Source: Ignavibacteria bacterium RIFOXYC2_FULL_35_21
GTDB taxonomy: Bacteria > Bacteroidota > Ignavibacteria > Kapaibacteriales > UBA2268
Assembly: GCA_001804705.1 (NCBI GenBank)
Contig: MHAY01000028.1
Location: 1-64,000 of the forward strand
Length of the DNA: 64,000 nucleotides
Direction: 5' to 3'
The notes under the pieces are model-generated. The model searched no databases. It was not told the origin of the DNA and was given only the letters and a program-made list of their open reading frames with translations. Below, piece by piece: positions 1,034-32,900 of the stretch (the first letter of the stretch is position 1; each line of letters starts with the position of its first letter). The translations under genes and the position numbers were made by a program.

Positions 1034-1624
1034 TTAATTGTATTCATCCTTTTCCCAATTAATGGGATTATATTTAATATATTGTCTTATTTTCCATAAT
1101 TCTTTTTCATTACGAATTATATGTTCATAATAATTTCTTTGCCATATTGTTGTTCCGGTTGTGTTTCGCATTTCATTTATTTCCTTTGCGGAAAACGTTT
1201 TAAATTGTCTTACAATTTCTGGTAAACCATGTTTTTTTATTGGTGTAGGGGCAGGTTCACAACCTGCCCCGTTAATGTCGGAAACATTTTCGCAAGTAAT
1301 CTGAACTGTATCTGATATCATAATTGAGTCAGGGGCAGGTTGTGAACCTGCCCCTACATTCGTTTCAATAAAATTTATTATTCCATGAATATGGTTTGGC
1401 ATAATAACAAATGAATCCAATTTAATATTTGAATTGTGATTTGGTAAATCATACCATTTTTGTTTTGCAATTTCACCATATTTATTTAATTTCATTTTAT
1501 AATCTGTAATATTACAAAATAAAATTTCTTTGTTGAAAGTACATATCGTTATATAATAATACACTGGTTTTGAATAATCATAATTTTTCAAACGAATTTG
1601 TTTTCGATTCCTAATAATTTTCAA
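1034..1624 (-). CDS. REP-associated tyrosine transposase (RAYT, Y1 HUH family)
   Basis: A 196-residue Y1-type single-strand transposase. It has the HUH motif in PNHIHGII, the upstream VYYYITICTFNK strand, and the C-terminal WQRNYYEHIIRNEKE helix that should hold the catalytic tyrosine, followed by IRQYIKYNP. RAYTs act on single-stranded REP hairpins bearing a 5' GTAG. The gene is unusual in containing two REP palindromes in frame, at 1245-1270 and 1332-1357. They encode GAGCEPAPTP and GAGSQPAPDS, between the HUH motif and the C-terminal helix. Matching GTAG hairpins occur through the window. The gene lies between the DprE2-like and DprE1-like genes, so it probably entered a former operon. Whether the enlarged loop is tolerated is unknown. 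Confidence 0.85.
   Translation of the reverse strand: MKIIRNRKQIRLKNYDYSKPVYYYITICTFNKEILFCNITDYKMKLNKYGEIAKQKWYDLPNHNSNIKLDSFVIMPNHIHGIINFIETNVGAGSQPAPDSIMISDTVQITCENVSDINGAGCEPAPTPIKKHGLPEIVRQFKTFSAKEINEMRNTTGTTIWQRNYYEHIIRNEKELWKIRQYIKYNPINWEKDEYN
1245..1270 (+). repeat. REP hairpin (GTAG type) inside the RAYT gene
   Basis: GTAG at 1245-1248 leads into arms GGGGCAGGTT and AACCTGCCCC with a CAC loop. It is in frame with the RAYT coding strand and encodes part of GAGCEPAPTP. Confidence 0.85.
1332..1357 (-). repeat. REP hairpin (GTAG type), second copy inside the RAYT gene
   Basis: Arms GGGGCAGGTT and AACCTGCCCC with a TGT/G-type loop, followed by CTAC at 1354-1357, i.e. GTAG on the minus strand. 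It is inverted relative to the copy at 1245 and encodes part of GAGSQPAPDS in the transposase. Confidence 0.85.
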
Positions 1625-11949: not shown

Positions 11950-12073
11950 TTTCAATTCCTTAAATAAAATATTCAAATGATTTAATAATTCTATTCACTA
12001 CCAAATATAATCATTTTCTTTTATTCTATTCCTTACAAATCCTGTGACTCAGCAGATATAGCTGAACGATTTT

Positions 12074-12112
12074 GTTTAAACCATGTCAGGAGTTACTCCT
12101 GACATAATAACG
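12074..12112 (-). repeat. Palindromic repeat, non-GTAG type (copy 1)
   Basis: Ten-base arms ATGTCAGGAG and CTCCTGACAT around a TTA loop (12083-12105). GTTTAAACC lies on the left and AATAACG on the right. The unit recurs at 12331, 12635, 12749 and 13054. Confidence 0.9.
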
Positions 12113-12328: not shown

Positions 12329-12367
12329 TTTTAAACCATGTCAGGAGTTACTCCTGACATAATAACG
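12329..12367 (-). repeat. Palindromic repeat, non-GTAG type (copy 2)
   Basis: Core at 12338-12360 with the same arms and TTA loop as copy 1, flanked by TTTAAACC and AATAACG. It ends the readable DUF5618-like fragment with an in-frame TGA. Confidence 0.9.
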
Positions 12368-12634
12368 TTCGGAATAATGCTTATGGTCAGATATTATTGA
12401 AATTGCACTGTCAAAACCGGCTTTAATAATTACAACCTTTTTCTCTCCTTCATAATACCCATCAGGTTGTAATGCGTGATAGGCATTATTTAAATGATTT
12501 AATAGATTTTTATCAATTCTTGATAATTCATTTTGGTAGTAATCAACGGTTTTTCTACCTCTTCTCTTATGAACGTTTTTTATGTCAAAGAAGAAATCAA
12601 GTCCTTTCGGAACACTTGAATAAACTATAACTTT

Positions 12635-12673
12635 GTTTAAACCATGTCAGGAGTTACTCCTGACATAATTACG
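12635..12673 (-). repeat. Palindromic repeat, non-GTAG type (copy 3)
   Basis: Core at 12644-12666, same arms and TTA loop; flanks GTTTAAACC and AATTACG. It lies inside the DUF5618-like reading frame. Confidence 0.9.
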
Positions 12674-12748
12674 TATTTTTCATCAGAATAGAATTTACCT
12701 TCTCTACCGGTTTTTTCAAAATCTCTTCATCGTTTACAATATAATTTG

Positions 12749-12811
12749 TTTAAACCATGTCAGGAGTTACTCCTTTAAACCATGTCAGGAGTTACTCCTG
12801 ACATAATAACG
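12749..12811 (-). repeat. Tandem palindromic repeats, one truncated (copies 4a, 4b)
   Basis: A truncated unit (12757-12774, lacking the last arm bases) is followed at once by TTTAAACC and a complete core at 12782-12804, then AATAACG. It lies 13 codons into the DUF5618-like gene. Confidence 0.9.
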
Positions 12812-12907
12812 TATGGCTTCCTTGCATGGATTTTCGGATAGCATAATAATTCTTTATTTTAAATTATATTTTTCAAAATTACAAAAGTTTACATAATCAT
12901 TATATTG

Positions 12908-13036: not shown

Positions 13037-13053
13037 ATTTATAAAATTTATTT

Positions 13054-13085
13054 ATGTCAGGAGTAACTCCTGACATGGTTTAAAC
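13054..13085 (+). repeat. Palindromic repeat, non-GTAG type (copy 5, inverted)
   Basis: Core at 13054-13076 with a TAA loop, followed by GGTTTAAAC. Orientation is opposite to copies 1-4. It sits 27 bases upstream of the PspC gene and may form the end of its leader. Confidence 0.9.
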
Positions 13086-13102
13086 AAATTTTAAGGATAG
13101 TT

Positions 13103-29177: not shown

Positions 29178-29206
29178 CTGTCAGGAGTTACTCCTGACAG
29201 ACCTAC
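29178..29206 (-). repeat. REP hairpin (GTAG type) with the TGTCAGGAG core
   Basis: Arms CTGTCAGGAG and CTCCTGACAG with a TTA loop, and GTAG on the minus strand (29206-29203). It joins the GTAG family to the non-GTAG palindromes at 12-13 kb, which share the same core. Confidence 0.85.
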
Positions 29207-29904: not shown

Positions 29905-32900
29905 ACCAATACCTCTCCTTTCTGTAAAATATCCTGCTTTAATTCTTCTTGTTCAATTTTTATCTTTTCGGTATAAGTAAATTCAAGGTCACATCTCATA
30001 CAACGAGATGCTTCATAAACTGCAGATTCTTCCGAAAGTGTTTTCTCAACTTCCTCAAGTGTGGTTCTTCTCTTTGCTGCTGAAATTGTAGGAAGTTTAA
30101 TTCTTTTCATTTCTTCCTCACTCTCTTCTCCCACAACTTCCTTTGGTGGAACATAAACCGAAGGCATCTTCCTGTCTAATGGTTTTCCAAGTTCTTCACC
30201 GTTTAAAAATCTATCAATCATAATTGCTGCTTTCTTTCCTGCTGCTATTGCTTCTACAACGGTATTTGGCCCGGTAACTACATCTCCTCCTGCAAATACA
30301 CCGGGGCGGTTAGTCTCCAGTGTGTCTTCATTGACAATCAAAGTTCCCCACTTATTAACATCAATTCCCATATATGTAATATAACCAACATCGGGAGTGT
30401 CCCCAATCGTTACAATAAGATTATCTAACGGCACAAAATATTCACTTCCTTTAATTGCCTGGGGATTTCTTCTACCGCTTGCATCGACATCTCCAAGCAT
30501 ATTTTTAATAAATTCAACTCCTCTCAGCTTTCCTTTTTCCGATTTTATTTTAACAGGAGAAACCAGTGTGTAAAGTATTATCCCTTCTTCCAATGCCGCA
30601 TCAATTTCGTGTTGCAGGGCAGGCATTTCGTTTCGTGTTCTTCTATAGAAAATCGTAACGCTTTCAACATCTTTCTGTCTCAATGCAACACGGGCAGCAT
30701 CAATAGCAGAGTCGCCCCCACCAATGACACCTACATGCCCATGTGCAAGTTTCTTTCCCTCAATATTAAAAGCCTTCAGGAATTCGATTGCTGGGAAAAC
30801 ACCTTCAAGGTCTTCACCTTCTATATTAAGTAATTTGCTCTTATGTGCTCCCATGCCAAGGAAGACTGATTTATATCCATTATTCAATAGATAATCAATC
30901 GTAATATCCTTACCCAGGGCAGTATTACAATGAAGTGTAATATTTTCATCAATCAAGCTTGCAATTTCTTTTCTCAGCACGTCCCTGGGGAGCCTGTATT
31001 CAGGAATACCGCTGATTAGCATACCGCCGGGCTCTGTGTCTTTTTCAAAAACAGTTACCTTATAACCCATGAGTGATAATCTGTGAGCGGCTGTTAAACC
31101 TGCAGGCCCAGCTCCGATTACTGCAACTTTATTATCATCGGCATTTTCTTTTATTTTTCGTACAGGTTTATAAACCGATGGTTCTATCATATCTGTAATA
31201 AATCTTTTCAATGCTCTGATAGCAACAGGTTCTCCCGTCAGAACTCCGGCTTTGCACATCTTTTCGCATGGATGACTACATACCCTTGCACATACAGACG
31301 GGAAAGGATTTGCTTCCCTGAGTGCTATATATGCCTGTTCATACTCTCCCCGTGCAATATGAGCAATATACCGCCATGCTTCTGTACCAATCGGGCAGGT
31401 AGCCTGGCAAGGTGCTCCGACAAGTTCCTTGCAAACTCCTGCTTTACAATGTTTATTTTTTATATGGTCAATATATTCATCCCTGAAATATTTTATGGTT
31501 GATAATACCGGGTTTGATGCAGTCTGGCCCAAGCCGCACATGGTAGTATCTTTTACGACGAGAGCAAGCTCTTCAAGAAGGTCAAGCTGTTCCATTGTAG
31601 CTTTACCTTTAGTGATGTCATCCAGGATTTCATACATACGTTGAGTTCCCTTACGGCAGGTAAAACACTTACCGCAGGATTCGCTTTTAAGAAAATTCAT
31701 AAAATATCTTGCAACATCAACAATACATGTTCTTTCATCCATAACTATCATGCCGCCTGAACCCATGATTGAGCCGACTTCAGAAAGTTTTTCAAAATCA
31801 ATTGGTATGTCGAACATATTAACAGGAATGCATCCACCCGATGGGCCTCCTGTTTGTATAGCTTTTATTTTTACATCACCCGGAGCACCACCGCCAATAT
31901 CATAAACCAATTCTTTTATTGTCATACCTAACGGTATTTCTACCAATCCCGTATTTTTAATCTTTCCAACGAGACTGAATATTTTTGTACCTGTGCTGGT
32001 TTTAGTTCCGATTTTGGCATATTCTGAGCCACCAATATCAATTATAATTGGAATATTAGCCCAGGTTTCAACATTATTAATAACGGTCGGTCTTCCATAG
32101 ACCCCCTTTTCAACAGGGTAGGGAGGCCTTTGTCTTGGTTCACCCATCTTCCCTTCGATAGATTTGATTAGTGCAGTTTCTTCACCACAAACAAAAGCAC
32201 CTGCACCGCGAACAATTTTTATATCGAAATTAAATCCTGTGCCAAGTATGTTATCACCCAGCAAACCGACATCCTTAGCTTGCCGTAATGCAATTGTGAG
32301 ATGTTTGATAGCCAATGGATATTCATTTCTTACATATACAACACCGTTTGTAGCTACGGTTGCATAGCCTCCTATCAGCATACCTTCAATAATACTGTGA
32401 GGATTACCTTCAAGGACACTACGGTCCATATATGCACCCGGGTCACCCTCGTCAGCATTACATATAATATATTTACCTTTGTCGCCAGGCTGCTTCGACA
32501 GAAATTCCCATTTAATACCTGTTGGAAATCCCGCGCCACCTCTACCTCTGATTCCGGAAATTTTTACTTGTTCGATTACTTGTTGGGGTGACATCGAGCA
32601 TAGAATTTTTTCAAGAGATTTATAACCAAAGTTAGTGAAATAGTCGGTTATTCTAATCGGGTCAATGTTCTGATTCTTTTTCAGTATGGTTCTTTGCTGC
32701 TTGCTGAAAAATGGAATATCGTGCTGCTTGTAATATCTCTCTCCGGTTTTCGGGTCAGTGTAAAGTAACTCTTCTACAAGCTTACCTTCGATTGTAGCAT
32801 CAATTATACTGCCAATCGTATCAAGCGTTACTTTGTGATAAAAAGCATCATCTGGCTTGATAAGTATAAATGGTCCCATTTCACAGAATCCATGGCATCC

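Follow-up and report, generated by a model that had tools for sequence, protein, structure and literature searches.

In the stretch of DNA analysed here (64,000 nucleotides, referred to below as the window), palindromic hairpin units landed more than once in a single dispensable gene, a member of the DUF5618 family, and helped to break it. The unit is probably a repetitive extragenic palindrome (REP) of a REP/RAYT system, RAYT being the REP-associated tyrosine transposase, and a local cluster of such units would have broken a DUF5618 paralogue together with a separate frame break. Many bacteria carry small hairpin DNA repeats in dozens of copies, probably spread by a transposase gene close by, and an element of this kind, a mobile hairpin repeat, is already known; here it comes with a non-canonical foot. 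REPs and RAYTs are well described in the excerpted text of PMC2817692.

Between positions 12071 and 13088 the window holds five full hairpin copies, four of them in the same orientation, and one truncated tandem copy. The features to which the text refers are the following:

12071..12112, plus strand, further hairpin copy, same orientation, about 220 bp past the DUF5618 gene
12330..12367, plus strand, hairpin site 3, at the 3′ end of the DUF5618 gene
12365..12631, minus strand, DUF5618 pseudogene piece 3, covering PF18498 positions 42-117
12632..12673, plus strand, hairpin site 2, where about four codons present in homologues are missing
12670..12740, minus strand, DUF5618 pseudogene piece 2, which holds the frame break, in an A-run near 12711
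12745..12811, plus strand, hairpin site 1, a full putative REP unit and a 25-bp partial tandem copy
12806..12844, minus strand, DUF5618 pseudogene piece 1, from the start codon to a conserved R-Y
13052..13088, minus strand, further hairpin copy, inverted, upstream of a pspC-like gene
29178..29200, plus strand, single intergenic full copy of another stem class, CTGTCAGG..CCTGACAG

The plus-strand palindrome ATGTCAGGAGTTACTCCTGACAT occurs exactly at 12083, 12338, 12644 and 12782, and also on the opposite strand at 13054, with a truncated tandem copy of the unit, 25 bp in length, at 12757. With up to three mismatches allowed, the window gave seven palindrome matches and 100 shuffled windows gave none, which bears out the statement of a first-pass annotation of this DNA that a palindromic unit is repeated here. 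The five window copies have common flanks that go beyond the general family consensus, and because these flanks are absent in the rest of the family, the window copies probably derive from one another. At the place corresponding to the inverted copy at 13052-13088 the sister species G001 and G002 have no hairpin, and the region aligned to the copy at 29178-29200 has a hairpin in G001 too.

On the minus strand three DUF5618 pieces follow one another (12844-12806, 12740-12670 and 12631-12365), and the earlier reading of them as DUF5618 in the right order has proved correct. The PF18498 match at 12389-12622 (minus strand) reaches 49.5 bits with a cut-off of 33, and by blastn the three pieces are collinear on the paralogue L011, at its nucleotides 6-36 (piece 1, 93.5% identity over 31 nt), 33-107 and 130-380; piece 3, which is open for 101 codons, has 60% amino acid identity to L011 over 86 aa. 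Site 1 splits the gene behind a conserved Arg-Tyr and site 2 behind a conserved Lys-Tyr-Val. Three interruptions and a fourth unit ending the gene had been claimed, of which two internal sites stand; a terminal copy does exist, but it is the third (12330-12367), the fourth copy of the same orientation (12071-12112) lying well past the gene. The tandem copy claimed for one interruption is present at site 1, in truncated form.

Two features go beyond the first-pass annotation, namely the break of the reading frame in the A-run of piece 2 and the loss of codons at site 2. The frame break is away from any hairpin, and the DUF5618 gene is therefore a pseudogene, broken even without the inserts; DUF5618 occurs at nine further places in the source genome, in keeping with a dispensable gene. 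Orthologues carrying the same inserts had been named as the finding that would speak against serial insertion, and in the comparison of orthologous places, which covered G001 and G002 (the G003 match being split over contig ends), neither a DUF5618 gene nor hairpins were found upstream of the pspC-like gene. The DUF5618 alignments consist of paralogues and of homologues from other places only; 33 loci went in, 5 of them without a protein, and the alignment shows 26, with site 1 readable in 24.

The placement of the unit behind CGT on the minus strand, another claim made from the letters, was recovered, with CGTTATTATG or CGTAATTATG before the unit at all four minus-oriented window sites, and the further claim of a preferred target held in part. 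CGT TA[T/C] is present at site 1 in 16 of 24 DUF5618 homologues and [T/C]ACGT at site 2 in 4 of 26, and the CGT is, by comparison with these homologues, native codon sequence at both internal sites, which are the homologue-testable ones; this argues for sequence-guided entry there. The preference does not extend to the whole family: CGT at window offset −9 is found in four of the five window copies, in none of the 47 other source-genome copies and in 1 of 28 copies of G001, and it is a local feature rather than a family target. On the plus strand site 1 reads TTTG TTTAAACC-hairpin-AATAACG, and TTAT stands on both sides as a four-base repeat, but at site 2 there is a deletion, so that a target duplication was rejected. 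Three comparisons around other copies yielded no clean insertion edge, and the cleavage dinucleotide predicted from the AACC guide was, on our reading, absent at the edges of the hairpin in an aminotransferase gene described below; as the guide-pairing prediction misfits these edges, no claim on cleavage sites is made.

In the source genome, a 4.15-Mb draft of 105 contigs, the family amounts to about 55-60 dispersed copies, which are spread across the genome and are mostly intergenic, long open frames containing 4 of 52 by our criterion. A 23-mer with up to three mismatches matches at 56 places, as against none for the reversed control pattern, and the exact 13-base core AGGAGTAACTCCT at 59. 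Foot and flanks were counted on copies with at most one mismatch in a 19-mer and with full flanks (52 in the source genome and 28 in G001, where the loci come from the pattern scan rather than from the whole G001 sequence), while covariation was read from a set with a looser core (68 and 36 copies, respectively, including a few rows without the GTCAGG stem). The outermost stem pair is A-T, G-C and C-G in 13 of 52 copies each. This pair, stem pair 11, is paired in 48 of the 68 source-genome copies of the looser set (shuffled mean 19.2, maximum 32) and in 29 of 36 copies of G001 (shuffled 10.3). Since pair 11 covaries and pair 12, the next outward, is paired at chance level, the stem ends there and is kept as a stem.

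The foot, AACC or a close variant, stands directly 5′ of the 11-bp hairpin on the plus strand of the window, the conserved side being GGTT on the minus strand, and the opposite side of the hairpin is not conserved in the copies outside the window cluster. All 47 of these copies have G at R4, and 37 of the 47 have it at R3; many copies have a T-rich 3′ side. A second dispersed palindrome, GAATAGCCACTACTTTTAAGTAGTGG, with its variants, often adjoins the hairpin (several loci, e.g. L027, L098 and L106). A viral origin was considered and rejected: a search of viral contigs for TCAGGAGTNACTCCTGA returned 21 stretches, and as the 16 inspected, those with a central A or its complement, had no GTCAGG..CCTGAC stem with a GGTT side, these were taken as chance or coding matches.

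The transposase gene of the system lies on contig C72, at 31240-31773 on the minus strand, and scores 111 bits with the NCBIfam model NF047646 for the REP-associated tyrosine transposase (cut-off 80) and 37.3 bits with PF01797 (cut-off 23). Hairpins of the family and variants of them are found on both sides of this gene, one of them 16 bases upstream of its start, and of the 59 cores about 0.02 would be expected within about 500 bp of it, whereas 6 are found there. Among the six Y1 genes of the source genome it alone has family hairpins in the fetched flanks, and its product aligns, HxH motif included, to homologues of G001, G046 and Zixibacteria. The other Y1 genes were rejected as a source, four of them being over the IS200/IS605 cut-off and none having family hairpins in the fetched flanks. 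A Y1-type ORF of 196 aa with a weak PF01797 match is present in the window itself (1034-1624, minus strand), with no family hairpins nearby. About 4 kb from the RAYT gene, an IS200/IS605-type Y1 gene (1323-2199 of L113, i.e. of C72:34167-36476) is accompanied by two other palindromes, CCCCATGCTTCAGCATGGGG and CCTCACACTAAAGTGTGAGG, which alternate in an array.

In the sister species G001 a hairpin likewise lies 16 bases ahead of the start of the RAYT orthologue (79% identity, 118.6 bits), and the opposite side of the gene has an array. Forward matches number 46 in the source genome and 30 in G001, both of which have a RAYT, and 4 in G002 and 5 in G003, for which a RAYT protein search gave no match at E 0.001; hairpin copy number tracks RAYT presence among these four congeneric genomes. 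Hairpin matches were present in 5 of the 60 genomes searched, which are the source genome, G001, G002, G003 and G015. In G046 a RAYT homologue (45%, 80.8 bits, just above the cut-off of 80) is flanked by AGTCAGGTGTTACACCTGACT and AGGTCAGTTGTAACAACTGACCT, and because the core of AGTCAGGTGTTACACCTGACT has one occurrence in that genome, copy number there lends no support to the rule that it tracks the RAYT. A 36% RAYT homologue on the Zixibacteria contig L210 (3560-4361) has an identical 19-mer about 55 bases upstream and GTCAGGAGTAACTCCTGAC and GTGTCAGGACCTAGTCCTGACAC just upstream, so that the same hairpin type accompanies a RAYT in another phylum. Tandem arrays occur in both sister species, one of five copies with a 51-bp period on C30 (L107), the G001 counterpart of which is a single copy, and one of at least five copies with a 41-bp period in G001 (L195), with a single copy on C34 of the source genome.

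Mobility of the hairpin family, which had been proposed, is supported by an aminotransferase gene (PF00155) with a site that is filled in some genomes and empty in others. In the source genome and in G001 this gene contains the hairpin in frame, where it encodes MSGVTPD.., and these residues are present in none of the 19 other aligned homologues (24 of 26 loci were submitted, 21 were aligned and 3 had no row). The gene is eight residues longer than in G002, G003 and G015, a net gain of 24 bases with the frame kept; the codons that flank the insert differ between homologues too. A subtilase-type ORF (PF00082) has SGVTPDRD ahead of its catalytic domain, the residues being absent in G002 and G003, and comparison of L059 on contig C2 with L249 of G001 revealed that G001 has a different palindrome-like sequence there, which makes the place a possible hotspot for in-frame palindromes. 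These two genes account for two of the four copies in long open frames. Contig C20 (5500-6000, L019) contains a repetition of the 3′ end of the aminotransferase gene, accompanied by hairpins spaced 236 bp apart.

By analogy with Escherichia coli and with group 3 enzymes, as treated in the excerpted text of PMC8266576, the C72 RAYT (TnpA-REP) probably acts on the REP in trans and mobilises it in single-stranded form. A longer variant of about 40 bases would recently have multiplied over about 1 kb in the source lineage, giving the five full copies, two of which would have entered the DUF5618 paralogue and one its 3′ end, so that together with the frame break a pseudogene would have resulted; slippage or a template switch, occurring at the hairpin, may have produced the partial tandem copy. 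We infer that the C72 RAYT moved the window copies, and the strand, the sites of cleavage and the sequence in which the events took place are on the same footing. REP insertion is favoured for the window copies and slippage for the tandem copy, and the proposal of a hairpin element that moved repeatedly into one gene draws support from the homologues, the family and the cognate transposase gene. Several observations count against the RAYT model: the shared window flanks are compatible with template-switch copying without a RAYT, the edges are inconsistent between the four-base repeat of site 1 and the deletion of site 2, the aminotransferase edges lack, on our reading, the cleavage dinucleotide expected from the AACC guide, and G046 has a RAYT homologue, yet the exact core adjacent to it is single.

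An alternative is that template switching or fork slippage, primed locally by short homologies such as CGT-TA, copied a single earlier REP insertion to give the window copies, with no RAYT taking part. The non-family flanks common to the window copies only, with CGT at −9 in four of five against none of 47, speak for such copying, as do the 25-bp partial tandem copy at site 1, the TTAT on both sides of that site and the arrays that face a single copy in the other species (C30/G001 and L195/C34); it is nevertheless considered rather unlikely, as simple slippage leaves unexplained the non-tandem copies, in both orientations and up to 1 kb apart, and as the whole family tracks the RAYT among four congeners. 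Short-range hopping driven by the RAYT, in which, after a REP has entered a gene, single-stranded copies would re-enter the same fork region by a CGT-type site and one gene would thus be struck repeatedly in one orientation, is put forward tentatively and is on balance doubtful.

It is very unlikely that the hairpins are selected RNA elements (terminators or stability hairpins) whose presence in the gene is incidental: the covariation of the stem, the T-rich 3′ side of many copies and the finding of only 4 of 52 copies in long open frames would agree with such a role, but the in-frame entry into open genes, the array around the RAYT gene and the lack of the window-site copies in two sister species would all go unexplained. 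The probability that the DUF5618 gene still works, through excision of the inserts from its transcript or through ribosomes that bypass them, is close to negligible. Even with a last piece open for 101 codons and TAT on either side of the insert at site 1, this would have to contend with a frame break away from the hairpins, the loss of about four codons at site 2, stops within the inserts and the nine other DUF5618 places in the source genome.

The preferred reading, that of a REP/RAYT system, is in keeping with what was found in the source genome and G001: a RAYT-type Y1 HUH gene with flanking REPs in both, a foldable hairpin in many dispersed copies and a copy number that tracks the RAYT in four congeners. 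The family resembles the REPtrons of Escherichia coli, Stenotrophomonas and Pseudomonas, as presented in excerpts of PMC2817692 and PMC8266576, in its short, dispersed and mostly intergenic palindromes, in the single RAYT with arrays on both sides and a copy number that tracks the gene, and in the conserved foot 5′ of the hairpin. It differs from them in the foot itself, which is AACC or a close variant instead of GT[AG]G, in having about 55-60 copies instead of hundreds and in its host, which is of the Bacteroidota/Ignavibacteria type. The super-families outlined in the excerpted part of PMC3733652 were both rejected, the GTAG-footed one because no GTAG is present at the palindrome end, and the CGTC-footed one, which has no dedicated transposase, because a CGTC foot is lacking and a RAYT is present.

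REPs without a GT[AG]G foot are reported, in the excerpted text of PMC6006769, for TnpA-Y1 subclass 2.6 (mostly Bacteroidetes) and class 3, and in-frame REPs for genes of subclass 2.4. As in subclass 2.6 and class 3, the source genome has a RAYT-like gene whose flanking structures lack GT[AG]G, and, as in subclass 2.6, copies recur elsewhere in the genome; the structures described for those groups are weaker, whereas the stem here is 11 bp, and the likeness to subclass 2.6 is limited to the non-GTAG foot and the phylum (PMC6006769, in part). REPs inside genes, even two in one gene (uvrA, uvrB), are described in the part of PMC3733652 available, and the window cluster is like these and like the Rickettsia palindromic elements in that palindromes lie in genes, sometimes two in one; those elements are reported as coding inserts, a condition matched by the two other source-genome genes that carry the hairpin in frame, whereas the window gene is broken instead. 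With the IS200/IS605 family, as excerpted from PMC8266576, and its minimal derivatives the system has in common a related Y1 transposase and the recognition of a single-stranded hairpin, but the four source-genome Y1 genes over the IS200/IS605 cut-off are not near family hairpins. Literature searches with sequence strings of the palindrome found no publication, and one that combined repetitive extragenic palindromes with Ignavibacteri returned a single paper, on Caldithrix.

The value of the finding lies mainly in the pile-up in a single gene, which is a good example of its kind, and in the filled and empty site. A single genome displays two fates of intragenic insertion, one in frame and apparently tolerated, the other destructive. 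The mechanism by which REPs spread is said, in the excerpted text of PMC8266576, to be unresolved, and it is for this reason that the combination in the source genome matters, as it joins a recent cluster of near-identical copies in one gene, a filled and empty site within a conserved gene, by which the added length comes to 24 nt, and sister species that differ in having the RAYT or not. If short-range hopping were true, the window cluster would record the donor, the strand and the target of REP dissemination.
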